In this document: in pieces, positions 11,745-23,675 of the stretch
Position numbering within the stretch: position 1 is the stretch's first letter
Layout: every line of letters starts with the position of its first letter
Source of the DNA: Chromatiales bacterium
GTDB taxonomy: Bacteria > Pseudomonadota > Gammaproteobacteria > SpSt-1174
Length of the DNA stretch: 64,000 nt
Direction: 5' to 3'
Assembly: GCA_014762505.1 (NCBI GenBank)
Contig: JABURS010000030.1
Location: 1 to 64,000 of the forward strand
Position numbers and translations under genes: made by a program
Notes under the pieces: model-generated
The model's input: only the letters and a program-made list of their open reading frames with translations
Told to the model about the DNA's origin: nothing
Database searches by the model: none

Positions 11745-12665
11745 CTATTTCTCCGGCAGGGGAATGAACTCCGCCTCGTCGCCCGGCACCTTCGGGAAGC
11801 GCCCTTCGCGCCAGTCCGTCTTCGCCTGTTCGATACGCTCCCGGCGACTGGAGACGAAGTTCCACCAGATGTGGCGGTGCGAGAGGCGTTCGCCACCGAT
11901 GATGACGAAGCGGGTCGGTGCGGTGGCCGTGACCTCGATGTCCTCGGCGGGGCTGAACACGGCCATGGTGCGGGCCGCGATACGGCTTTCCATGGCCTGG
12001 AGTTCGCCGTCCACCACGTAGAGGGCGCGCTCCTCGATGCCGTCGGGCAGGCGCAGGCGCTGGCCGGGTTCGAGCCTTGCTTCCACGTACAGTGTCTCGG
12101 CCAGCGTCTTCACGGGCGAGCGGACGCCATAGGCCTCGCCGATCAGCACGCGGACGGCTGCACCGTCGATGTCTGCGGCGGGGATCTCTGCGGCATCGTA
12201 GTGGTGAAACGCCGGCTCCATCTCCTCGTCCGCCTCGGGCAGGGCTAGCCAGAGCTGCAGGCCTTCCAGCGCGTTGCCGGCGGCCTTGATCTCCTCGCGC
12301 TGACGCTCCGAATGCACGATCCCGCGGCCGGCGATCATCAGGTTGATCTCGCCGGGTCTTACCGCCAGCTCGTTGCCCAGCGAGTCGCGATGCAGCATCT
12401 CGCCGCGGAACAGGTAGGTGACGGTGGCGAGGTTGATGTGCGGATGGGGGCGCACGTCGATGCCCTGGCCGGGCGGGAAGTCCGCCGGGCCCATGTGGTC
12501 GAAGAAGATCCAGGGGCCGATCATGCGCCGCTCGGCCGAGGGCAGGGCGCGACGTACCACGAAGCCACCGAGGTCGTGGGGCCTGGGTGTGATGATCAGC
12601 TCGATGGCCGTGCAGGCGCCGGCCTGGCATTCCGGGGGCAGCTGCTGGAGGGTTTCGATGCTCAT
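11745..12665 (-). CDS. Pirin family protein (second copy)
   Basis: This 306-residue pirin has HPHINLATVTYLF and GEMLHRDSLG in the first cupin, followed by GRGIVHSERQRE. The second His block and the Glu region therefore differ somewhat from the copy at 3471-4340. A second cupin covers about 185-265. The start at 12665 is preferred over one at 12716 because it matches pirin N-termini and has a GAGG upstream. The protein is only distantly related to the other pirin here, so it is not a recent duplication. It lies downstream of the flavoprotein gene, separated by 148 bases. Confidence 0.85.
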   Translation of the reverse strand: MSIETLQQLPPECQAGACTAIELIITPRPHDLGGFVVRRALPSAERRMIGPWIFFDHMGPADFPPGQGIDVRPHPHINLATVTYLFRGEMLHRDSLGNELAVRPGEINLMIAGRGIVHSERQREEIKAAGNALEGLQLWLALPEADEEMEPAFHHYDAAEIPAADIDGAAVRVLIGEAYGVRSPVKTLAETLYVEARLEPGQRLRLPDGIEERALYVVDGELQAMESRIAARTMAVFSPAEDIEVTATAPTRFVIIGGERLSHRHIWWNFVSSRRERIEQAKTDWREGRFPKVPGDEAEFIPLPEK

Positions 12666-12813
12666 GGGGCCTCGTTGTCCTGGCGTCCCGGTTTTTGCTG
12701 GTTCGCATTGCAGCACGGGACTGATTGGTTGGGTTCACAACAAACCGGGTCAGGGAGAAAATATCATTAATTTCAGTGGAGGTGGTTGGCTGGCCCGTTT
12801 TTCTCTGCGCGAC

Positions 12814-14193
12814 TCACTCCAGCGGTCGGAGCGACTGCAGCATCGTGGGGAGTAATTCAGACACGGTCGGGTGGATGTGCACGGCACGGCTGATGACGGT
12901 GTAGGGTCTCCCGGCATACATCACGTCGAGAAGCACGTGCACGACCTCGTCGCCGTGCAGGCCGAGCAGGGTGGCACCGAGGATCTCCCCGCTGTCGGCA
13001 TCGACGAGCACTTTCATGAAGCCGCGCGTCTCGCCCTGCTCGCGGGCGCGCGCGACGGCGGACATCTCGAGCCTGCCCACCAGCACGTTGCGCCCTGAGT
13101 CGCGCGCCTCGCGTTCGGTCATGCCGGCACGGCCGAGTGGCGGGTCGGTGTAGAGGGCGTAGCAGGGGATGCGGTCGCTCACCCGGCGCGGGTCATCGTC
13201 GAACAGGTTGGCGACCACGATCTCGTAGTCGTTGTAGCTGGTGTGGGTGAAGGCCCCCTGGCCGTTGACCTCGCCGAGCGCCCACACGCCTTCGATGTTG
13301 GTACGCAGGGCGTCGTCGACGCGTATGTGCCCCCGCTCGTCGGTCTCGATCCCGGCGTTCTCAAGGCCGAGGTCGTCGGTGTTGGGCACGCGACCAACCG
13401 CCAGCAGCAGGTGGCTGCCCTCGATGGGTGTTGCGTCGTGCCCGCACTCGATGTTCACGCGCACGCCCTCCGGCCCGCGTTCGACGCTCAGGCACTCGGC
13501 CTCCAGCCGCACTGTAATGCCCTCGTCTTCGAGGAACTTGCGCACGGTGTCGGATACCTCTTGGTCCTCATGCCCTATAAGCCGGTCCTTCATCTCGACC
13601 ACGGTCACCCGGGCGCCGAACCGGCGGTACATCTGCGCGAACTCGAGGCCGATGTAACTTCCGCCGATGATGACCAGGTGCCCCGGGATGAAGTCGAGGT
13701 CCATGATGCTGGAGCTGGTGAGGTAGCCGACCTCGTCGAGGCCCGGCAGATCGGGTACCCGTGCGCGGGCGCCGACGTTGATGAAGATGCGTTCGGCCGT
13801 GAGTGTCCTGCCGTTAACGGACAGCGAGTGCGCATCCTCGAAGCAGGCGTGGCCGCGGATCAGCGTGACGTTCTCCATGCCTTCCACCCACCGGGTCACG
13901 CCCTGGTTGGCGGCGGCGACGATCTCGTCCTTGCGTGCCTTGACCCGTGCCATGTCCACGTTCACGGGCGCGTCGATCTTCACGCCGTAGTCCTCGGCGC
14001 GCCGCGCGAGATGTGCGACCCGTGCGCTCGCCACCAGCGTCTTGGTCGGGGTGCAGCCGGTGTTCACGCAGGTGCCGCCCATCAGGTGCCGCTCGACGAT
14101 GGCGGTCTTGAGGCCCTCCTTGCCGAGCCGTTCGGCCAGCGGCGGACCGGCCTGGCCGGCCCCGATGACGATGGCGTCGTAGTGTTCGGTCAT
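12814..14193 (-). CDS. FAD/NAD(P)-dependent disulfide oxidoreductase (RclA / mercuric reductase-like)
   Basis: The 459-residue protein is a class I flavoprotein disulfide reductase. It has an N-terminal GxGxxG (VIGAGQAGPPLAERL) and the redox pair Cys42/Cys47 in GGTCVNTGCTPTK. An NAD(P)-binding GGSYIGLE motif, an FAD site around VWALGEVNGQG, and a C-terminal dimerisation domain with AVHIHPTVSE follow. It lacks the N-terminal heavy-metal domain and the C-terminal vicinal Cys pair of true mercuric reductases, so Hg(II) reduction is unlikely. RclA-like protection against reactive oxidants or metal stress is more plausible. The start at 14193 is favoured by GGGAGGG upstream. It lies next to, but not within, the selenoneine genes. 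Confidence 0.85.
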   Translation of the reverse strand: MTEHYDAIVIGAGQAGPPLAERLGKEGLKTAIVERHLMGGTCVNTGCTPTKTLVASARVAHLARRAEDYGVKIDAPVNVDMARVKARKDEIVAAANQGVTRWVEGMENVTLIRGHACFEDAHSLSVNGRTLTAERIFINVGARARVPDLPGLDEVGYLTSSSIMDLDFIPGHLVIIGGSYIGLEFAQMYRRFGARVTVVEMKDRLIGHEDQEVSDTVRKFLEDEGITVRLEAECLSVERGPEGVRVNIECGHDATPIEGSHLLLAVGRVPNTDDLGLENAGIETDERGHIRVDDALRTNIEGVWALGEVNGQGAFTHTSYNDYEIVVANLFDDDPRRVSDRIPCYALYTDPPLGRAGMTEREARDSGRNVLVGRLEMSAVARAREQGETRGFMKVLVDADSGEILGATLLGLHGDEVVHVLLDVMYAGRPYTVISRAVHIHPTVSELLPTMLQSLRPLE

Positions 14194-14292
14194 GGCTTGC
14201 ACCCTCCCTGAAGCCCGCGCGGGCCGCGCACTCCGCTGTCGTGAACGAATGGCCCCGGGCCGGAATGCCGGTCGCGGCGCTGCCGTCATGGT

Positions 14293-15258
14293 CTAGATCG
14301 ACCCGGATGCCTCTATATCTTCTAGCAGTTTTTGCCAGCCGGCCTGTTCGCGCTCGGGCATGAACAGGCCCCGGCGTGCGGCGCAGGCGGCCTCGAGGTC
14401 GGTATAGAACGTCGGGTCCGACTCGGCCCGCAGGAGCAGGTCGCGCAGGGCATCGGCATTCTTCACCGGATAGTAGCCGGGGTAGTCGTCACCGAGTAGC
14501 CCCACCGAGCCGTCGATGTCGGAGGCGATCACCGGCAGGCCGGCCATCACCGCCTCGGAGATCACGTTCGCGCCGCCCTCCATGATCGAGGGCAGGACCA
14601 GCAGGTGCGAGCGCGCATACACCCGCCGCAGTTCCGCGTGCGGGATCTCGCCATGCCAGCGGTAGCGCGGGTTGCGCTGCATCTCCTCGCGCGCGGCCGC
14701 AGCCCAGTCCGGGGTGTGTGCCCCGCCGTAGGCATCCACCCGGATGCGGCTGTCCGGCGGCAGGTCGCGCACGGCCAGTGCCGGGCGCAGCGGGTCCTTC
14801 TCCTCGCGCAGGTGGCCGGCGAAGCAGACACGGAAGCTGCGCCGGGCGGGCTGTCGGTGCAGGAGCGGACGGGCCGACTGCACGATGATGCGCAGCTTGT
14901 CGCGCAGGTGATTGGGCAGCACGTTGCCCACCAGCGCATGCAGCCCGACGATGTGGTCGGCGGCCTCGAGCGAGGCGAGCGTGGGCTCGGGGTGGCTGTG
15001 GATGAAGCGGTAGGCATCGGTGCCGGTGAGCACCACCACCAGGGGGCGGTCCGGGTAGGTGGCGGCAAAGCGGGCGATGGCCTCGGCGCTGCGCCAGGCA
15101 TGCAGCCCCACCATCAGGTCGGCCGGCTCGCCCTGGTAGTCGGTGGACACGTGCACCCGGTGGCCGAGCCGGCGCAGGATCGCCGCCCAGCGGTTGGCCG
15201 TGGCCCGGTTGCCGGCGCGCGAACCGCGCGGTGCAGGGGTGATCAGGCGGATGTGCAT
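14293..15258 (-). CDS. senB: Selenosugar synthase SenB (GT4-type glycosyltransferase)
   Basis: This 321-residue protein has a GT-B glycosyltransferase layout. The N-terminal domain starts MHIRLITPAPRGSRAGNRAT. The C-terminal domain carries SIMEGGANVISEAVMAG, the family's sugar-nucleotide binding Glu region. This combination, immediately beside an EgtB-like gene and a selD gene, identifies SenB. SenB couples a UDP-sugar (UDP-GlcNAc in studied cases) to selenophosphate to make a selenosugar, the selenium donor for selenoneine. It is cytosolic. It is divergent from senA, with about 50-60 bases between the starts, so one compact promoter region probably serves both. It ends in TAG. Confidence 0.85.
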   Translation of the reverse strand: MHIRLITPAPRGSRAGNRATANRWAAILRRLGHRVHVSTDYQGEPADLMVGLHAWRSAEAIARFAATYPDRPLVVVLTGTDAYRFIHSHPEPTLASLEAADHIVGLHALVGNVLPNHLRDKLRIIVQSARPLLHRQPARRSFRVCFAGHLREEKDPLRPALAVRDLPPDSRIRVDAYGGAHTPDWAAAAREEMQRNPRYRWHGEIPHAELRRVYARSHLLVLPSIMEGGANVISEAVMAGLPVIASDIDGSVGLLGDDYPGYYPVKNADALRDLLLRAESDPTFYTDLEAACAARRGLFMPEREQAGWQKLLEDIEASGSI

Positions 15259-15320
15259 GTGACTTTCCGGCGCATCCTTGCGACCATAGCATGCGAACCT
15301 GATCGATGGGATATCGTGGC

Positions 15321-16601
15321 ATGTCGCAACCGCTGATCGACTGGATGGAAGACGCCCGCCGGCGCACGCTCGCGCTGATCGAGGGGCTGGACAGCGGGCA
15401 GCTGATGGGGCCGAAGCTGCCCATCGTGAACCCCCTGCGCTGGGAGATCGGGCACGCCGCCTACTTCTACGAGTACTGGATCCTGCGCCAGCACCTGGGC
15501 GAGCCCCCCGTGCTCCCGTCGGTGGACCGTCTCTATGACTCCATCACCATCGCCCACGACGACCGCTGGGACCTCCCCTTGCCGAGCCTCGAAGACACCC
15601 TGGCCTACATGCGCGCGGTGCACGACCGGGTGCGCCGCCACGTGGAGCAGGACGGGCCCGACCCGCAGCGGGATTACCTGCTCGAGTACGCGATCTATCA
15701 CGAGGACATGCACGGCGAGGCCTTCACCTACACGCGCCAGACCCTGGAATACCCCGCGCCGGCCATCGGCGCCGTGCCCGCGGACCTGATGCAGGGCCGG
15801 CTGGAAGGCGATGCGCAGATCCCTGGCGGCCGCTTCATGCTGGGCGCCACGCCGCAGGACGGTTTCGTCTTCGACAACGAGAAGTGGGCGCACCCGGTGG
15901 AGGTGCAGCCCTTCGCCATCGCCCGCGCCGCGGTGAGCAACGCCGAGTACGCGGCCTTCGTCGAGGCCGGCGGTTACACGGACCCGCAGTACTGGGACGA
16001 GGACGGCCTGGCCTGGCGGCGCGAGTCCGGCCTCGAACACCCGCGCTACTGGCGGCGCGCCGGCGGGGGCTGGGAGATGCGGCGCTTCGACCGCTGGGAG
16101 CCGCTGCCGCCGGATGCGGCGGTGATCCACGTCTGCTGGCACGAGGCGCGCGCCTACTGCCGCTGGGCCGGGCGGCGCCTGCCCACCGAGCTGGAGTGGG
16201 AGGTGGCGGCCGCCGGCCAGCCGGGTGCCGACGGTGGCCTGTCCGCCGAGAAGCGCCACTACCCCTGGGGCGACGCTGCGCCCGCACCGCAGCTCGCCAA
16301 CCTCGATGGCCGCGCGCTGGGCACCATCGCGGTGGGCGCGCTGCCGGCGGGCGACAGCGCCTTCGGCTGCCGGCAGATGATCGGCAACGCTTGGGAGTGG
16401 ACCGAGGATACTTTCGAGCCCTACCCGGGCTTTACACCCGACATGTACGCGGACTACTCCCAGCCGCTGTTCGGCAACACCAAGGTGCTGCGCGGCGGGG
16501 CCTGGACCACCCGCGGGCGCATGATCCGCAACACCTGGCGCACCTACTACGGACCGGAGCGCAACGACGTGTTCGCCGGTTTCCGCACCTGCGCACTCTG
16601 A
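15321..16601 (+). CDS. senA: Selenoneine synthase SenA (EgtB-like non-heme iron enzyme)
   Basis: The protein has the EgtB architecture. An N-terminal DinB-like domain carries the iron-binding histidines (in WEIGHAAYF, about residue 45, and the HEDMH pair, about 127 and 131). A C-terminal FGE/sulfatase-modifying-type domain includes CRQMIGNAWEWTED and ends RNDVFAGFRTC. EgtB makes the C-S bond of ergothioneine; its SenA relatives use a selenosugar to form the C-Se bond on hercynine. The flanking senB and selD genes favour SenA over EgtB. Start: ATG at 15321 follows GGGATATCGTGGC; an in-frame ATG at 15306 adds five residues and has no visible site. Confidence 0.82.
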   Translation: MSQPLIDWMEDARRRTLALIEGLDSGQLMGPKLPIVNPLRWEIGHAAYFYEYWILRQHLGEPPVLPSVDRLYDSITIAHDDRWDLPLPSLEDTLAYMRAVHDRVRRHVEQDGPDPQRDYLLEYAIYHEDMHGEAFTYTRQTLEYPAPAIGAVPADLMQGRLEGDAQIPGGRFMLGATPQDGFVFDNEKWAHPVEVQPFAIARAAVSNAEYAAFVEAGGYTDPQYWDEDGLAWRRESGLEHPRYWRRAGGGWEMRRFDRWEPLPPDAAVIHVCWHEARAYCRWAGRRLPTELEWEVAAAGQPGADGGLSAEKRHYPWGDAAPAPQLANLDGRALGTIAVGALPAGDSAFGCRQMIGNAWEWTEDTFEPYPGFTPDMYADYSQPLFGNTKVLRGGAWTTRGRMIRNTWRTYYGPERNDVFAGFRTCAL

Positions 16602-16673
16602 GTACCCGGAGGATTGGATGACGATGCCAGGCCGCGAGGCGATGCGCTGCACACCAGCCAGGGAGGGGCGGGC

Positions 16674-17645
16674 ATGAGCGAGCTGGCGAGCTTCGCGGAC
16701 CTGCACCCCACCGCCGACGATCTCGCGGCGGACGTGCTGGCCGGGTTCTGCCGGCCGCAGAAATCGGTCCCGCCCAAGTACTTCTACGACGCCGAGGGCT
16801 CGCGGCTGTTCGACGCGATCACCGGGCTACCGGAGTACTACCCCACGCGTACCGAGACGGCCCTGCTGCGCCGCTATGCGGACGAGATCGCGCAGAAGGC
16901 CGGCACCGGGCAGCTGCTGGTCGAGCCCGGCAGCGGCAGCTGCACCAAGGCGCGCCTGCTGTTCGCGGGCCTGAGGCCCTGCGCCTACGTGCCCATGGAC
17001 ATCTCGCGCGACCACCTGCGCATGGCCGCGGAGCAGGTCGCCGTCGAGTTCCCCTGGCTGGAGGTGCACGCGGCCTGCACCGATTTCACCCGGCTGATGG
17101 CGCTGCCGCCGGACAGCCCGGAGGGCCGGCGCCTGGCCTTCTTCCCGGGATCGAGCATCGGCAACTTCGACCCGCAGGCGGCGGTCGGCTTCCTGCGCAT
17201 GATCGCGGACCTGGTCGGGCCGGGCGGGCAGCTGCTCATCGGCGTGGACCTGAAGAAGGACCGGGCGATACTCGAGGCCGCCTACGATGACGCCCAGGGC
17301 GTGACCGCGGCCTTCAACCTCAACCTGCTCGCGCGCATCAACCGCGAGCTCGGCGCCGACTTCGATCTCGCGAAGTGGGGCCACCGGGCCGTGTACAACG
17401 AGGCCGAGGGTCGCATCGAGATGCACCTGGTCTCGCTGGCGGCGCAGCAGGTGAGGCTGCAGGGCCGCAGCTTCCACTTTGCCGAGGGCGAGACCATTCA
17501 CACCGAGAATTCCTACAAGTACACCGTGGCGGAGTTCCGCGAGCTGGCGGCACGGGCCGGCTTCACCGCGGACAGCGTATGGGTGGACGACGAGCGCCTG
17601 TTCAGCCTGCACCTGCTGACGACGGAGGCGGCGGATGAAGTCTGA
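16674..17645 (+). CDS. egtD: L-histidine N-alpha-methyltransferase EgtD
   Basis: The 323-residue protein has EgtD hallmarks: PPKYFYDAEGSRLFDAITG and LPEYYPTRTE near the N-terminus, the SAM-binding VEPGSGSCTKARLL, and PGSSIGNFDPQAA in the middle. EgtD trimethylates histidine to hercynine, the acceptor for SenA. GGGAGGGGCGGGC precedes the ATG at 16674. It follows senA by 72 bases, and its 3' end overlaps the selD start by 11 bases, so the three genes form an operon. Having the hercynine enzyme inside the cluster makes the locus self-sufficient for the organic part of selenoneine. Confidence 0.92.
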   Translation: MSELASFADLHPTADDLAADVLAGFCRPQKSVPPKYFYDAEGSRLFDAITGLPEYYPTRTETALLRRYADEIAQKAGTGQLLVEPGSGSCTKARLLFAGLRPCAYVPMDISRDHLRMAAEQVAVEFPWLEVHAACTDFTRLMALPPDSPEGRRLAFFPGSSIGNFDPQAAVGFLRMIADLVGPGGQLLIGVDLKKDRAILEAAYDDAQGVTAAFNLNLLARINRELGADFDLAKWGHRAVYNEAEGRIEMHLVSLAAQQVRLQGRSFHFAEGETIHTENSYKYTVAEFRELAARAGFTADSVWVDDERLFSLHLLTTEAADEV

Positions 17646-19893
17646 CATCCCGGTCGTCAAGGACATCGTCCTGGTCGGCGGCGGGCACGCGCACGTCTCC
17701 GTGCTGCGCCGCTTCGGCATGAAGCCCATGCCGGGCGTGCGCCTGACCGTGATCACCCGCGACATCCACACGCCGTACTCGGGCATGCTGCCCGGCCTGG
17801 TGGCCGGGCACTACGGCTGGGACGACGTGCACATCGACCTGGGGCCGCTGGCCCGCTTCGCCGGGGCGCGCCTCTACCACGGCGAGGTCGCGGGCCTGGA
17901 CCTCGCGCAGCGCGTTGTGCAGGTGCCCGGCCGCCCGCCGGTGCACTACGACCTCCTGTCCATCAACACGGGTTCGCGCCCGCGCACCATCGACGTGCCC
18001 GGTGCGCTGGAACATGCCCTGCCGGTGAAGCCCATCGACCAGTGGCTCGACAACTGGCAGGCCTTGCAGGAACGGGTGCGGGCGAGCCGTGGCGCGTTCC
18101 GCGTGGTCGTCGTGGGCGGCGGTGCCGGCGGCGTGGAGCTGGCGCTTGCCACCCGGCATCGCCTGCGAGGCCTGTTGCGCGAGCAGGGCGAGGATGCCTC
18201 GCGCCTGCACTACACATTGCTCACCGACGGGCCGGAGATCCTGCCCACCCACAACCCCGGGGTGCGCCGCCGCTTCAACCGGGTGCTGGGCGAGCGCGAC
18301 ATCGCGGTGCATGCGCACAGCAGGGTGGTGGCCGTCGAGCCCGACGGGGTGCAGGTCGAGGGCGGCGGGTTCCATCCGGCCGACGCCGTGCTCTGGGTCA
18401 CCTCGGCCGCCGCGCCGCAGTGGCCGGGGCAGTCGGGGCTCGCGGTGGACGAGCAGGGCTTCATCCGTGTGGACGCGTCGCTGCGCTCGACCTCCCATCC
18501 CGAGGTCTTCGCCGCCGGCGACGTGGCCGCGCTGCCGGACCCCCGGCCCAAGTCCGGCGTGTTCGCCGTGCGCCAGGGGCCGGTGCTCACCGAGAACCTG
18601 CGCCGCGCGGTGGCCGGCCGTCCGCTCAAGCGCTACCGCCCGCAGAAGCATTTCCTCGGCCTGATCAGCACCGGGGATCAGTACGCCGTGGCCTCGCGCG
18701 GCAACTGGTCCTGGGAGGGCCGGCTGCTGTGGACCTGGAAGGACTGGATCGACCGGCGTTTCATGCAGCGCTTCAACGAGCTGCCGGAGATGCCCCAGGA
18801 GACGGGGCCCGACGTGGGCGGCATCGCCGACGCCGAGGCCATTCGCGAGCTCTCCACCCTGGCCATGCGCTGTGGCGGCTGCGGCGCGAAGGTGGGCAGC
18901 ACCGTGCTCAGCCGGGTCATCAACCGCCTGCCGGCGCAGCGCCGCCCCGACGTGCTGATCGGTCTGGATTCGCCGGACGATGCGGCGGTGTTCGAGGTGC
19001 CGCCCGGCAAGGTGATGGTGCAGAGCGTGGACTACTTCCGCGCCTTCATCGACGACCCCTACACCTTCGGTCGCATCGCCGCCAACCATGCGCTGGGCGA
19101 CATCTTCGCCATGGGTGCCGAGGCCCAGTCCGCGCTGGCCATCGCCACGGTGCCCTACGGCCGCGAGCACATCGTCGAGCAGACCCTCGCCGAGGTGATG
19201 AGCGGCGCCCTGGACACCCTGGCGCCCACCGGCGCGGTGCTGGCCGGCGGGCATTCCAGCGAGGGCGCCGAGCTCGCCTTCGGCCTCACGGTGAACGGCC
19301 TGATCGCGAAGGACGCCCTGCTGCGCAAGGGTGGCATGCACCCGGGTGATGCACTGATCCTGACCAAACCCATCGGCACCGGCACGCTGTTCGCGGCCGA
19401 GATGCGCGGCAAGGCGAAGGGGCGCTGGGTGGACGGGGCCATCCAGTCCATGCTGGTCTCCAGTCAGGCCGCCGCGGCCTGCCTGTACCGGCGCGGTGCG
19501 ACTGCCTGCACCGACGTCACCGGCTTCGGCCTGCTGGGGCACCTGGTGGAGATGACGCGCGCCTCGGACGTCGACGTGCGGCTGGAACTGGAAACGGTGC
19601 CGGTGCTCGACGGGGCGGAGCAGACGGTGGCCGCGGGCATCCTCTCCTCGCTGCAGCCGCAGAACGTGCGCCTGCGCCGCGCCGTGCGCGACCCCGATGC
19701 CCTGAGCGCCCACCCGCGCTACCCGCTGCTGTTCGATCCCCAGACCGCCGGCGGCCTGCTGGCCGCGGTGCCGTCGGCGCAGGCGGCCGACTGCCTGGCC
19801 GAGCTGCACGACCTCGGTTACCCGCATGCCGTGATCATCGGCCGGGTCGAGCCGCGCAGCGCCGAAGAGGCGCCGGTTCAGGTCGTCCCCTGA
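17635..19893 (+). CDS. selD: Selenide, water dikinase SelD fused to an N-terminal FAD oxidoreductase domain
   Basis: This 752-residue fusion has two parts. Residues about 1-385 are an NDH-2-like FAD/NAD(P) domain (DIVLVGGGHAHVSVL, then VVVVGGGAGGVELAL, then HPEVFAAGDVAAL). Residues about 405-752 are selenophosphate synthetase, with MRCGGCGAKVG (Cys413 at the catalytic Cys/Sec position), SPDDAAVF, NHALGDIFAMGA and CTDVTGFGLLGH. It makes selenophosphate from selenide and ATP; the flavin domain may deliver or reduce selenium. This fusion is a known family type. Here it overlaps egtD and supplies SenB, so it plays the SenC role. No selA, selB or tRNA-Sec is in the window. Confidence 0.9.
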   Translation: MKSDIPVVKDIVLVGGGHAHVSVLRRFGMKPMPGVRLTVITRDIHTPYSGMLPGLVAGHYGWDDVHIDLGPLARFAGARLYHGEVAGLDLAQRVVQVPGRPPVHYDLLSINTGSRPRTIDVPGALEHALPVKPIDQWLDNWQALQERVRASRGAFRVVVVGGGAGGVELALATRHRLRGLLREQGEDASRLHYTLLTDGPEILPTHNPGVRRRFNRVLGERDIAVHAHSRVVAVEPDGVQVEGGGFHPADAVLWVTSAAAPQWPGQSGLAVDEQGFIRVDASLRSTSHPEVFAAGDVAALPDPRPKSGVFAVRQGPVLTENLRRAVAGRPLKRYRPQKHFLGLISTGDQYAVASRGNWSWEGRLLWTWKDWIDRRFMQRFNELPEMPQETGPDVGGIADAEAIRELSTLAMRCGGCGAKVGSTVLSRVINRLPAQRRPDVLIGLDSPDDAAVFEVPPGKVMVQSVDYFRAFIDDPYTFGRIAANHALGDIFAMGAEAQSALAIATVPYGREHIVEQTLAEVMSGALDTLAPTGAVLAGGHSSEGAELAFGLTVNGLIAKDALLRKGGMHPGDALILTKPIGTGTLFAAEMRGKAKGRWVDGAIQSMLVSSQAAAACLYRRGATACTDVTGFGLLGHLVEMTRASDVDVRLELETVPVLDGAEQTVAAGILSSLQPQNVRLRRAVRDPDALSAHPRYPLLFDPQTAGGLLAAVPSAQAADCLAELHDLGYPHAVIIGRVEPRSAEEAPVQVVP

Positions 19894-19899
19894 ATCGTC

Positions 19900-19980
19900 G
19901 TAGGAGCGGTGCGAGCCGCGAGCCGCGAGCCGCGATGCCGCGATGCCGCGATGCCGCGATGCCGCGATGCCGCGAGTTGC
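19900..19980. repeat. GTAGGAG repeat half followed by 7-/8-base tandem repeats
   Basis: The element starts with GTAGGAGCGGTGCGAGCCGC (19900-19919), a copy of a dispersed repeat seen again at 20092. Its end has expanded into three GAGCCGC units (19913-19933), five GATGCCGC units (19934-19973) and a degenerate GAGTTGC. Slippage during replication is the simplest explanation. Together with the pair at 20053-20114 it fills the 345-base gap 19894-20238 between selD and cbbR, in which I see no gene. Confidence 0.75.
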
Positions 19981-20052
19981 AAGTCGCGTGGGGCTGCGTT
20001 TATGCCCTCTGGGTGCAAGCTGCGATGCCGTTGCCTGGTCAACGTGCCGCCC

Positions 20053-20114
20053 GATCGCGCCTTGCAGCGCTCCTACCAACCCGGTGCTCCCGTAGGAGCG
20101 GTGCAAGCCGCGAT
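20053..20114. repeat. REP-like inverted pair (GTAGGAG family)
   Basis: GATCGCGCCTTGCAGCGCTC... (20053-20076) and GTAGGAGCGGTGCAAGCCGC... (20092-20114) are inverted copies of one another, ending CTCCTAC and starting GTAGGAG. This resembles the paired REP/BIME elements common in intergenic DNA of gammaproteobacteria. Further partial copies occur at 19900 and about 20144-20178, and a related pair lies at 57807-57882. They may form 3' hairpins or be targets of a REP-associated transposase, but none is encoded here. Confidence 0.7.
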
Positions 20115-20238
20115 TGCCCATGCCCCGGGCAGCGTGCCACCCCTGATCGCGCCTCGCACCCGGAGGACATAAACGGCGCTCCTACTCCTAACGCCTATCC
20201 CCTAACGCCATGCGGGGCAATGTCCCGGCCTGGCATTT

Positions 20239-21141
20239 CTAGCGCATCAGGCGCTCCGCATCCTTCAGCACGATCTCCGTGAAGGCCTGGGCCGCCGGGC
20301 TCGGGCGCCGGCCTTCGCGCTGCACCAGGTACCACTTGCGCTTGAGGGGAAAGCCCTTCACGTCCAGCACGCAGAGCTGGCCGGAGGCGATCTCTGCCTG
20401 GACGGTGTGCAGCGAGACCACGCCGACCCCCAGCCCGGCCTCCACCGCCTGTTTGATGGCCTCGTTCTTGTTCATTTCCATGGCCGTGTTGAACGGCAGG
20501 CCGTGTTCGGCGAGGAAGGCGGCCAGCGCGCCGCGCGTGCCGGAGCCCTGCTCGCGGCCGATCAGCGGTTCCTCGAGAAAGCGCGCCAGGGGGATGCCGC
20601 TCTTCCCCGCCAGCGGGTGGCTGGTGGCGGCGATCACCACCAGGGGGTTGTCCATGAAGGGGCGGGCATGCAGGCCGAGGTCTTCCGGCGGCTTGCCCAT
20701 CAGGGCGAGGTCGATGGTGTTCTCCGTCAGGTGCCTGAGCAGGGTTTCGCGGTTGACGACGTTGAGGCTCAGCTGCACCTCCGGATACAGGGCGCGGAAG
20801 CGGGCCATGAGCCGGGCGGCGAAGACGCTGGCGGTACTGGCGGCGGAGACGGTGAGCGTGCCGCCCTTGAGTCCCTGCAGATCGGCCAGCGCCTGTTCGA
20901 GGTTGGCGAGTTCGCGCGCGATCAGCTGGGCGCTGTTGAGTGTCTCCCGGCCGGCCTCGGTGAGACGGATCTGTTTGCCGATGTGCTCGAACAGGGGCAG
21001 GCCGAGGCCGGCCTCGAGCTGCTTGACCTGCATGGAGACGGCGGGCTGGGTGAGGTGCAGCTCGCCGCTGGCACGCGAAAAGCTGCCGCAGCGGGCGACG
21101 GCCTCGAGGATCTCGAGCTGACGCAGGGTGATTTTTCGCAT
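20239..21141 (-). CDS. cbbR: LysR-type regulator of the CO2-fixation gene (CbbR)
   Basis: The 300-residue protein has a LysR helix-turn-helix (TLRQLEILEAVARCGSFSRA, then LTQPAVSMQVKQLE) and an effector domain starting GGTLTVSAASTASVFAARL. It is divergent from cbbM, with 120 bases between starts, which is the standard CbbR arrangement. CbbR proteins sense metabolites such as RuBP, phosphoenolpyruvate or NADPH and activate cbb genes; the ligand here is not readable. The gap contains AT-rich LysR-like T-N11-A sequences around 21145-21205. It ends in TAG. Confidence 0.88.
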   Translation of the reverse strand: MRKITLRQLEILEAVARCGSFSRASGELHLTQPAVSMQVKQLEAGLGLPLFEHIGKQIRLTEAGRETLNSAQLIARELANLEQALADLQGLKGGTLTVSAASTASVFAARLMARFRALYPEVQLSLNVVNRETLLRHLTENTIDLALMGKPPEDLGLHARPFMDNPLVVIAATSHPLAGKSGIPLARFLEEPLIGREQGSGTRGALAAFLAEHGLPFNTAMEMNKNEAIKQAVEAGLGVGVVSLHTVQAEIASGQLCVLDVKGFPLKRKWYLVQREGRRPSPAAQAFTEIVLKDAERLMR

Positions 21142-21261
21142 AAGAATTACTTTGTAATTATCAAAATAATCCTTAATTTATCTGATAGACCATGTAATTT
21201 ATAGTGCCTTCCGATGCTTGTGCCCCAGGGGCACTCCCACCACGCAAATCGGAGAAGTTAC
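21142..21261. promoter_or_regulatory. cbbR-cbbM divergent control region with a leader palindrome
   Basis: The half next to cbbR (21142-21205) is very AT-rich for this genome, with several TTA/TAA half sites such as GTAATTATCAAAATAATCC and TTAATTTATCTGATA, suited to CbbR binding. Nearer cbbM, GTGCCCC-A-GGGGCAC (21220-21234) is a perfect palindrome, about 28 bases before the start codon. It could be an operator or a leader hairpin. GGAGAAGTTAC is the ribosome binding site. I cannot place the transcription start. Confidence 0.5.
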
Positions 21262-22650
21262 ATGGCTCACGATCAATCCAGTCGTTATGCGAACCTCGAT
21301 CTGACCGAAGAGGAACTGATCGCCGGCGGCCAGCACATCCTGGTTGCCTACACGATGAAGCCCAAGGCGGGCTACGACTACCTCGCCACGGCGGCCCATT
21401 TCGCCGCCGAGTCCTCCACCGGCACCAACGTCGAGGTCTGCACCACCGACGACTTCACCAAGGGTGTGGATGCCCTGGTGTACCACATCGATCCGGCCAG
21501 CGAGGACATGCGCATCGCCTATCCGCTGGACCTGTTCGATCGCAACGTGATCGACGGTCGCATGATGCTGGTGTCCTTCCTCACCCTGACCATCGGCAAC
21601 AACCAGGGCATGGGCGACGTGGAATACGCCAAGATGATCGACTTCTACATGCCCGAGCGCGCCATCCAGCTGTTCGACGGCCCGTCCCGTGACATCTCCG
21701 ATCTGTGGCGCATCCTCGGTCGTCCGGTGAAGGACGGTGGCTACATCTCCGGCACCATCATCAAGCCCAAGCTGGGCCTGCGCCCCGAGCCCTTCGCCCA
21801 GGCGGCCTATGAATTCTGGCTGGGTGGCGACTTCATCAAGAACGACGAGCCCCAGGGCAACCAGGTGTTCGCCCCCATCAAGAAGACCCTGCCGCTGGTG
21901 TACGACGCCATGAAGCGCGCGCAGGACGAGACCGGCGAGGCCAAGCTGTTCTCCATGAACATCACCGCCGACGACCACTACGAGATGTGCGCCCGCGCCG
22001 ACTTCGCACTGGAGACCTTCGGCCCCGACGCCGACAAGCTGGCCTTCCTGGTCGATGGCTATGTCGGCGGCCCGGGCATGGTGACCACGGCGCGTCGCCA
22101 GTACCCGAGCCAGTACCTGCACTACCATCGCGCCGGCCACGGCGCCGTGACCTCGCCGAGCGCCAAGCGCGGCTACAGCGCCTTCGTGCTGGCCAAGATG
22201 TCCCGCCTGCAGGGTGCCTCCGGTATCCACGTCGGCACCATGGGCTACGGCAAGATGGAAGGCGAGGCCGACGACAAGGTGATCGCCTACATGATCGAGC
22301 GCGACGAGTGCCAGGGCCCGGTCTACTACCAGAAGTGGTACGGCATGAAGCCCACCACCCCGATCATCTCCGGCGGCATGAACGCCCTGCGCCTGCCCGG
22401 CTTCTTCGAGAACCTGGGCCATGGCAACGTGATCAACACCGCCGGCGGCGGCTCCTACGGCCACATCGATTCCCCGGCCGACGGCGCCCGTTCGCTGCGC
22501 CAGGCCTACGAGTGCTGGAAGGCCGGCGCCGATCCGGTCGAGTGGGCGAAGGAGCACCGCGAATTCGCGCGCGCCTTCGAATCCTTCCCGCACGATGCCG
22601 ACAAGCTCTACCCGGGCTGGCGTGACCGGCTGGGCGTGAAGGCGGCGTAA
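21262..22650 (+). CDS. cbbM: Ribulose-bisphosphate carboxylase, form II
   Basis: The 462-residue protein is a full-length form II RuBisCO. Active-site parts are intact: Lys168 in [10 protein letters not shown], the carbamylated Lys193 with Asp195 and Glu196 in [14 protein letters not shown], and loop-6 Lys331 in [10 protein letters not shown]. It fixes CO2 onto RuBP in the Calvin cycle and needs no small subunit. The start at 21262 has GGAGAAGTTAC upstream. A Rho-independent terminator follows at once, so cbbM is probably monocistronic. No cbbQ/cbbO activase genes are adjacent. Form II enzymes suit low O2 and high CO2. Confidence 0.97.
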
Positions 22651-22674
22651 GCAGCCCGCATCGCCCGTTACAGG

Positions 22675-22711
22675 AGCGGCGTCCATCGTTGGGGTGGGCG
22701 CCGCTTTTTTG
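22675..22711 (+). terminator. Rho-independent terminator of cbbM
   Basis: AGCGGCGTCC (22675-22684) pairs with GGGCGCCGCT (22696-22705), ten pairs with one G-U, followed by a run of six T. It lies 25 bases after the cbbM stop codon. Confidence 0.88.
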
Positions 22712-22874
22712 TGGGTCTTCCTGCCGGGGATCCGTATGGGGTCTTTTGCATGAGCCGAGAAGAATGGATGCGTCCTCATTGTTGCGGTCGCGCTCGACAG
22801 TGCGCTTTGCCGAGGGGTATCGTTCTCGAGCCGTCAGGCGAACAACAACAACCAATTCAGGACAGGGGGATTTT

Positions 22875-23675
22875 ATGGGGAGTAAACGAACAATCGTTTC
22901 CTTGGTGGCCGGGTTTGCCCTGCTGGTGATGGCGGGGATGTTGCAGGCGGCCGAGATCGGGGTGGTCTTCCTGCATGCCAAGGGCGCCTCGCCGGATGCC
23001 GGCACGACCTCCGGGCTGATCGACCGAATGCGCAAGGAGGGCATGGAGGTGGTGACGCCCGAACTGCCCTGGTCCAAGGGTCGTGGCTACGATGCCAGTT
23101 ATGAAGATGCCCTCGGGCAGGTGCACGAGGCGGTGCAGGCATTGCGTGCGAAGGGCGTGAAGACCGTGATCGTCGCGGGCCATAGTCTGGGTGCCAACGG
23201 GGCGATCGGATATGCAGCCAACTATGACGGCGTGAACGGTGTGGTTGCCATCGCGCCGGGGCATTCGCCCGAGCTGAGGGGCTTTCAGAAGAAACTCGGC
23301 GACAGCGTCGAGCGTGCACGAGCCATGGTCGATGAGGGCAAGGGTGATGAGGCCGGCCGCTTCAATGACCTCAACCAGGGCAAGACCTCTGCAGTGAAGA
23401 CCACCCCGCTCATCTACCTGAGCTATTTCGATCCCGAGGGTCCGGCCGTGATGCCGAGCAACGTGATGGGTCTCAAGGAAGGAACTGCGCTGCTGTGGAT
23501 CGTCGGCGAGAAGGACCGGATGGCGAAGCGCGGTGAGGGCTATGCCTATGGCATGGCGCCGGCCAATGAACTGAATGCCTATGTCGTGGTTCCGGGTGGG
23601 CACAAGGCCACGCCGGCCAGGGGCGAGCAAGAGATCATCGCCTGGATCAAGCGGGTTGCCGCAGCGCGGCGATAG
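22875..23675 (+). CDS. Exported alpha/beta-hydrolase
   Basis: The 266-residue protein starts with a signal peptide (about residues 1-25, VSLVAGFALLVMAGMLQAAE). An alpha/beta-hydrolase fold follows. The nucleophile elbow is GHSLGANGAIG (Ser near residue 105), a possible acid lies in GEKDRM, and the His is probably in PGGHKATPA near the C-terminus. The start at 22875 follows AGGGGGATTTT. It would be a periplasmic esterase or related hydrolase; the substrate is unknown. It has its own terminator and stands between cbbM and the BLUF gene without obvious co-transcription. Confidence 0.82.
   Translation: MGSKRTIVSLVAGFALLVMAGMLQAAEIGVVFLHAKGASPDAGTTSGLIDRMRKEGMEVVTPELPWSKGRGYDASYEDALGQVHEAVQALRAKGVKTVIVAGHSLGANGAIGYAANYDGVNGVVAIAPGHSPELRGFQKKLGDSVERARAMVDEGKGDEAGRFNDLNQGKTSAVKTTPLIYLSYFDPEGPAVMPSNVMGLKEGTALLWIVGEKDRMAKRGEGYAYGMAPANELNAYVVVPGGHKATPARGEQEIIAWIKRVAAARR

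Follow-up and report, generated by a model that had tools for sequence, protein, structure and literature searches.

A predicted selenoneine biosynthesis cluster with its own hercynine and selenophosphate enzymes in a Chromatiales bacterium

Selenoneine biosynthesis has been described for Variovorax paradoxus, whose sen cluster (SenA, SenB and SenC) has a SenB that adjoins SenA and a selenophosphate synthase (Kayrouz et al. 2022, via PMC9814287, PMC10702425 and PMC10891094). The same adjacency is found in the window, that is, the whole stretch of 64,000 nucleotides of a Chromatiales bacterium analysed in this study (contig JABURS010000030.1 of assembly GCA_014762505.1). The residues with which SenB handles selenophosphate and the sugar have been identified by mutagenesis (PMC10891094). 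SelD proteins fused to an oxidoreductase and carrying a CxxC motif have been known since 2008 and are common in the sea, and their role was unclear at that time (PMC2398784). In 2015, selenocysteine (Sec) machinery was reported for all then-known genomes with a fused SelD (PMC4561486), and at least 26 bacteria have a SelD without a known use for it (PMC5029168). The selenoneine pathway itself is already known and the new points of this study are modest, i.e., the selenium economy of the host, the possible use of a single EgtD for two products, and a set of residues by which SenA can be told from OvsA.

Our results indicate that the cluster very probably encodes selenoneine biosynthesis and is a genuine, complete member of the known pathway. 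The original prediction described a SenB-like gene divergent from an EgtB-like gene that is followed by EgtD and SelD, and the four genes were recovered exactly at 14293-19893, all over the curated NCBI cut-offs and with matches far beyond chance. The features are as follows (model scores with cut-offs in brackets).

12814..14289, minus strand: FAD-containing pyridine nucleotide-disulphide oxidoreductase, downstream of senB (NF004992 769, cut-off 629)
14293..15258, minus strand: senB, predicted selenosugar synthase, a Se-glycosyltransferase (TIGR04348 429 bits, cut-off 300)
15259..15320, no strand: intergenic region of 62 bp between the divergent senB and senA (from the sequence, with the senA start taken from the homologue at locus L042)
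15306..16601, plus strand: senA, predicted selenoneine synthase, an EgtB-like non-haem iron enzyme (NF041186 528, cut-off 420)
16614..17645, plus strand: egtD, histidine N-alpha-trimethyltransferase (TIGR03438 417, cut-off 291)
17635..19893, plus strand: whole SelD fusion (TIGR03169 499 and TIGR00476 308)
17635..18804, plus strand: N-terminal FAD/NAD(P)H oxidoreductase domain of the SelD fusion, NDH-2/SQR-like (TIGR03169 499, cut-off 310)
18835..19893, plus strand: SelD domain in the SenC role, selenophosphate synthase with a CxxC active site (TIGR00476 308, cut-off 125)

The Pfam folds agreed with these calls (GT-B transferase; DinB and FGE-sulfatase; Methyltransf_33; FAD oxidoreductase and AIRS). 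The genes senB and senA are transcribed divergently, and senA probably starts at 15321, where its homologue in L042 starts, while an alignment with M. smegmatis EgtD (MsEgtD) places the egtD start probably at the ATG at 16674. With these starts 62 bases separate senB from senA, and about 72 bases lie between senA and egtD, so the overlapping operon that had been proposed stands for egtD and selD, which overlap by 11 bases, and not for senA and egtD. Beside the sen operon, a CbbR-like regulator of the LysR type and a form II RuBisCO are encoded divergently (20239-23675 of the window), neighbours which make autotrophy of the host likely. The FAD disulphide oxidoreductase on the other side bears a CVNTGC motif and could reduce oxidised selenoneine. 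Its family is present at 5 of the 83 SenB loci, which leaves a conserved pathway reductase unsupported, and the gene is probably a neighbour and not a conserved part of the cluster.

Family models support every step of the route from histidine and selenide to selenoneine, as had been predicted. EgtD would trimethylate histidine to hercynine, the fused SelD would form selenophosphate from selenide and ATP, and SenB would convert selenophosphate and a UDP-sugar into a selenosugar. SenA would then use iron and O2 to attach the selenium of this selenosugar to hercynine at carbon 2; the resulting selenoxide would eliminate the sugar residue and give selenoneine after reduction. The N-terminal FAD domain may feed the SelD step or keep it reduced. 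We infer these reactions, and selenoneine as their product, from what the sequence gives, namely the families to which the proteins belong, their catalytic residues, the clade and the order of the genes. Such a self-contained gene set from histidine to selenoneine would be handy for heterologous production.

The window SenB is 40% identical to that of V. paradoxus and scores well over the cut-off of its family model. The alignment showed that N20, T23, H58, R61, T83, T85, R155, K158, E231 and E239, i.e., the catalytic lysine K158 together with the sugar and selenophosphate pocket, are all kept in the window protein and in the other 11 aligned SenBs. The window SenB departs only at V157, which is E, at H235, which is N, and at L209 and T214 of the uracil pocket. 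The hercynine source is the sole EgtD of the genome, which aligns with M. smegmatis EgtD over its whole length (236 bits against the MsEgtD structure). The SelD domain keeps C17 and K20 of E. coli SelD, carries the motif RCGGCGAK (CxxC) and is over the cut-off for a selenophosphate synthase, and the structural relatives of the N-terminal fusion domain are NDH-2, SQR and FSP1. The fused form that had been singled out from a plain SenC is indeed present, but it is the usual form at SenB loci and, as noted above, long known. The oxidoreductase-fused SelD is the rule at these loci, with CxxC in 57 of 57 fused SelDs whose motif was in view. The idea that a fused SelD occurs only with selenoneine or ovoselenol was rejected: the four plasmids that bear a full-length fusion are not the three that bear SenB, and the fused SelD of Rhodobacter sp. 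CZR27 adjoins mnmH/selU.

The EgtB-like protein could be SenA, OvsA or the EgtB of ergothioneine biosynthesis. Were it OvsA, a possibility that the original prediction did not consider and that we regard as improbable, it would act on histidine and not on hercynine, and the cluster would yield ovoselenol or another selenohistidine. OvsA is the top solved-structure match (342 bits), followed by mycobacterial EgtB and then by V. paradoxus SenA (256 bits), a CAL C-terminus is common to the window protein and OvsA, and the SenA model NF041186 also scores the OvsA of Vreelandella (Halomonas) utahensis (locus L086, 10114-11460) at 427, over the cut-off of 420. The SenA model score alone was therefore rejected as proof of SenA, and automatic annotation with NF041186 may label OvsA genes as senA. 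Because the model and the top structure match left OvsA possible, trees were built and residues were compared, taking the proteins from 80 SenB loci of named genomes, EgtBs of the same class and other genomes. The careful tree, built from 34 proteins, separated the selenium clade (100/99), the EgtBs (100/99) and the OvsAs (100/100), and it placed the window protein outside the OvsA group, with the SenB-linked SenAs, its nearest relative being that of another Chromatiales genome (L042, 85% identity). A quick tree of 87 proteins gave the same split of the selenium enzymes from EgtB. That quick tree nested OvsA inside the SenA group; the careful tree neither confirms nor contradicts such a branching among the SenA groups, and we make no claim on the origin of OvsA. 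Residues were mapped by alignment and numbered as in mycobacterial EgtB, their active-site roles being in part those that we presume. The iron triad H51, H134 and H138 is retained in the window protein, and R87 is replaced by H and Q137 by M, as in all other selenium-clade proteins aligned (56 SenA-type proteins, four OvsA rows and two Variovorax-type proteins in the alignment). At positions 380, 414 and 415 the natural OvsAs, further OvsA-type genes included, have M/Q/A, whereas SenAs have Y, then N or T, then an aromatic residue; the window protein has Y/T/Y, in which T in place of the usual N, common to only seven other clade members, is a small departure. The OvsA-specific W at window Y142 and N at D134 are absent as well, EgtD lies inside the operon, and no methyltransferase other than EgtD was found among the scanned cluster genes (11745-21141), all of which argues against ovoselenol. 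Within the aligned part, the only differences between the two OvsA sequences of solved structures are at the pocket positions 380, 414 and 415, where M is exchanged for Y, Q for N and A for F; 8ux5 appears to be an engineered SenA-like variant. Ergothioneine as the product, with SenB and SelD as mere neighbours of an ordinary EgtB, is extremely unlikely. Adjacency to EgtD is typical of ergothioneine operons, and the EgtB model TIGR03440 scores the window protein at 336, just below its cut-off of 360. But the EgtBs lie outside the selenium clade, and position 87 of the 15 class EgtBs is R in 14 and Q in one, with Q at position 137 in all 15 (EgtB2-type proteins have K at 87 and mostly Q at 137), while both positions are replaced in the window protein, and SenB with all its catalytic residues is divergent from the EgtB-like gene at dozens of loci. 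Tree position, pocket residues and the adjacent hercynine gene together favour SenA, and both the clade and the active-site comparison that the original prediction proposed as checks came out on the selenium side. The signature of R87H and Q137M marks selenium enzymes, and Y/N-or-T/aromatic versus M/Q/A splits SenA from OvsA, which the NCBI model now in use does not tell apart.

On the other hand, selenoneine may not be the only product that draws on this EgtD. It is quite possible, though we stop short of calling it probable, that EgtD also feeds a distant EgtB-like/EgtC pair and that both a selenium and a sulfur compound are made from one hercynine pool, which extends the selenoneine explanation and does not oppose it. 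The second EgtB-like gene (L009:9076-11003; G000:C43:403075-405002, minus strand) adjoins an EgtC that is borderline (TIGR03442 218.9, cut-off 218.65), has no EgtD nearby, and in its relatives EgtD often stands beside this second EgtB. Since the only EgtD of the genome is in the sen operon, ergothioneine, if made, must use the hercynine formed there. Against this, the second EgtB-like protein falls below the cut-offs of both the EgtB and the SenA model, and its residue is M where EgtB has Q137 and K where EgtB has R87. Ergothioneine had been named as evidence against selenoneine; that argument falls away, because this pair could make ergothioneine alongside. Selenoneine as the product of the sen cluster remains our reading, and the original interpretation was largely right.

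The host genome, which is rated 100% complete, has one SelD over the cut-off, one EgtD and one SenB over the cut-off, and its sole SelD and EgtD sit in the sen cluster. Searches of this genome, for which E. coli gave the expected matches as a control, did not find SelA or YqeB, nor SelU apart from a scrap of 20 bits, nor tRNA-Sec; one tRNA-Sec match (48.1, threshold 47) was rejected, as all eight fetched candidates were Ser, Gly, Tyr or Leu tRNAs. The notion that selenium is diverted to a small molecule did not hold, for none of these other outlets was found in the host genome. With one SelD and none of these markers found, SenB is the only protein there with a recognised use for selenophosphate, and it seems somewhat probable that selenoneine is the whole dedicated selenium economy of the host, its sole, fused SelD having no outlet to selenoproteins, selenouridine or a selenium cofactor. 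Earlier definitions would class the genome as one with an "orphan SelD" (PMC5029168). It is also at odds with what was stated in 2015 (PMC4561486), since a fused SelD is present and neither SelA nor tRNA-Sec was found. It is a natural test of what an orphan SelD is for, and if the reading is true, such genomes would account for some of the orphan SelDs, and one function could be assigned to the fused CxxC SelDs abundant in the sea. A PhnD/PhnC/PhnE-type ABC transporter (TIGR04553, a putative selenate transporter) stands beside senB at about 31-34 loci, including L052, L054, L061, L066, L080, L083, L084 and L097-L121; it is absent from the window, and the host genome has only a sub-cut-off relative (167 vs 250).

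SenB was over the cut-off in 22 of the 369 sampled genomes of the class and in none of the neighbours sampled from the genus or family, a pattern suggestive of patchy gain or loss. In Marinobacter (L097, L108, L111 and L115, with L173-L176) senB and a fused selD lie apart from an OvsA-type gene that the genome carries elsewhere, and these pairs without SenA were rejected as a third pathway on account of that gene. The OvsA-type gene of Marinobacter similis A3d10 (L177; G369:C1:3879416-3880742) appears to be split into overlapping pieces with an in-frame stop while senB and selD are intact, through decay or sequencing error. A Taylorina symbiont (L172, L179; G374:C4:76965-80759) has SenA-type and OvsA-type genes about 1.2 kb apart with one senB-selD locus close by, and perhaps makes both selenium compounds from one selenosugar supply. 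In Halochromatium glycolicum DSM 11080 (L048) senB adjoins a fused selD, and the sole EgtB-like match in the draft has the EgtB-type residues R and Q. This purple sulfur bacterium may have a SenB with neither SenA nor OvsA, or the assembly may have a gap. A small plasmid of Methylorubrum populi (NC_010727.1, L182) carries senA and senB beside an IS6-type transposase, with no selD or egtD in the stretch shown, and may be a mobile partial cluster.

As compared to the known systems, the catalytic residues of SenB and the selenium-clade replacements of SenA are the same in V. paradoxus and in the window. The Variovorax-type locus (L158) has a single-domain SelD and egtD lies several kilobases off, whereas egtD of the window is in the operon and its SelD is the fused CxxC form; the window SenA has a longer middle segment that is not found in V. 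paradoxus SenA. Ergothioneine EgtB operons have the EgtB-like fold, the iron triad and the EgtD neighbour in common with the window, but keep R87 (Q in 1 of 15) and Q137 and have no SenB. The ovoselenol cluster of V. utahensis (OvsA, L086) shares SenB, a fused SelD and an EgtB-like selenium enzyme with the window, but its OvsA has the M/Q/A pocket in a clade of its own and, unlike in the window, there is no EgtD within the 9-kb flanks; a candidate methyltransferase beside OvsA was identified by eye only. In the nearest relative, L042, egtD is not between senA and selD, having been lost or moved. A similar layout is seen in Thioalkalivibrio, Thiohalophilus and uncultured Gammaproteobacteria (L042, L044, L049, L050, L053, L054, L056 and L070), which have the divergent senB and senA and the fused SelD as in the window. 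Several of these SenB-linked clusters also have egtD in the same place, and the divergent order of senB and senA-egtD-selD is found in at least six loci besides the window, namely L050, L053, L054, L056 (whose contig ends inside selD), L070 and L160.
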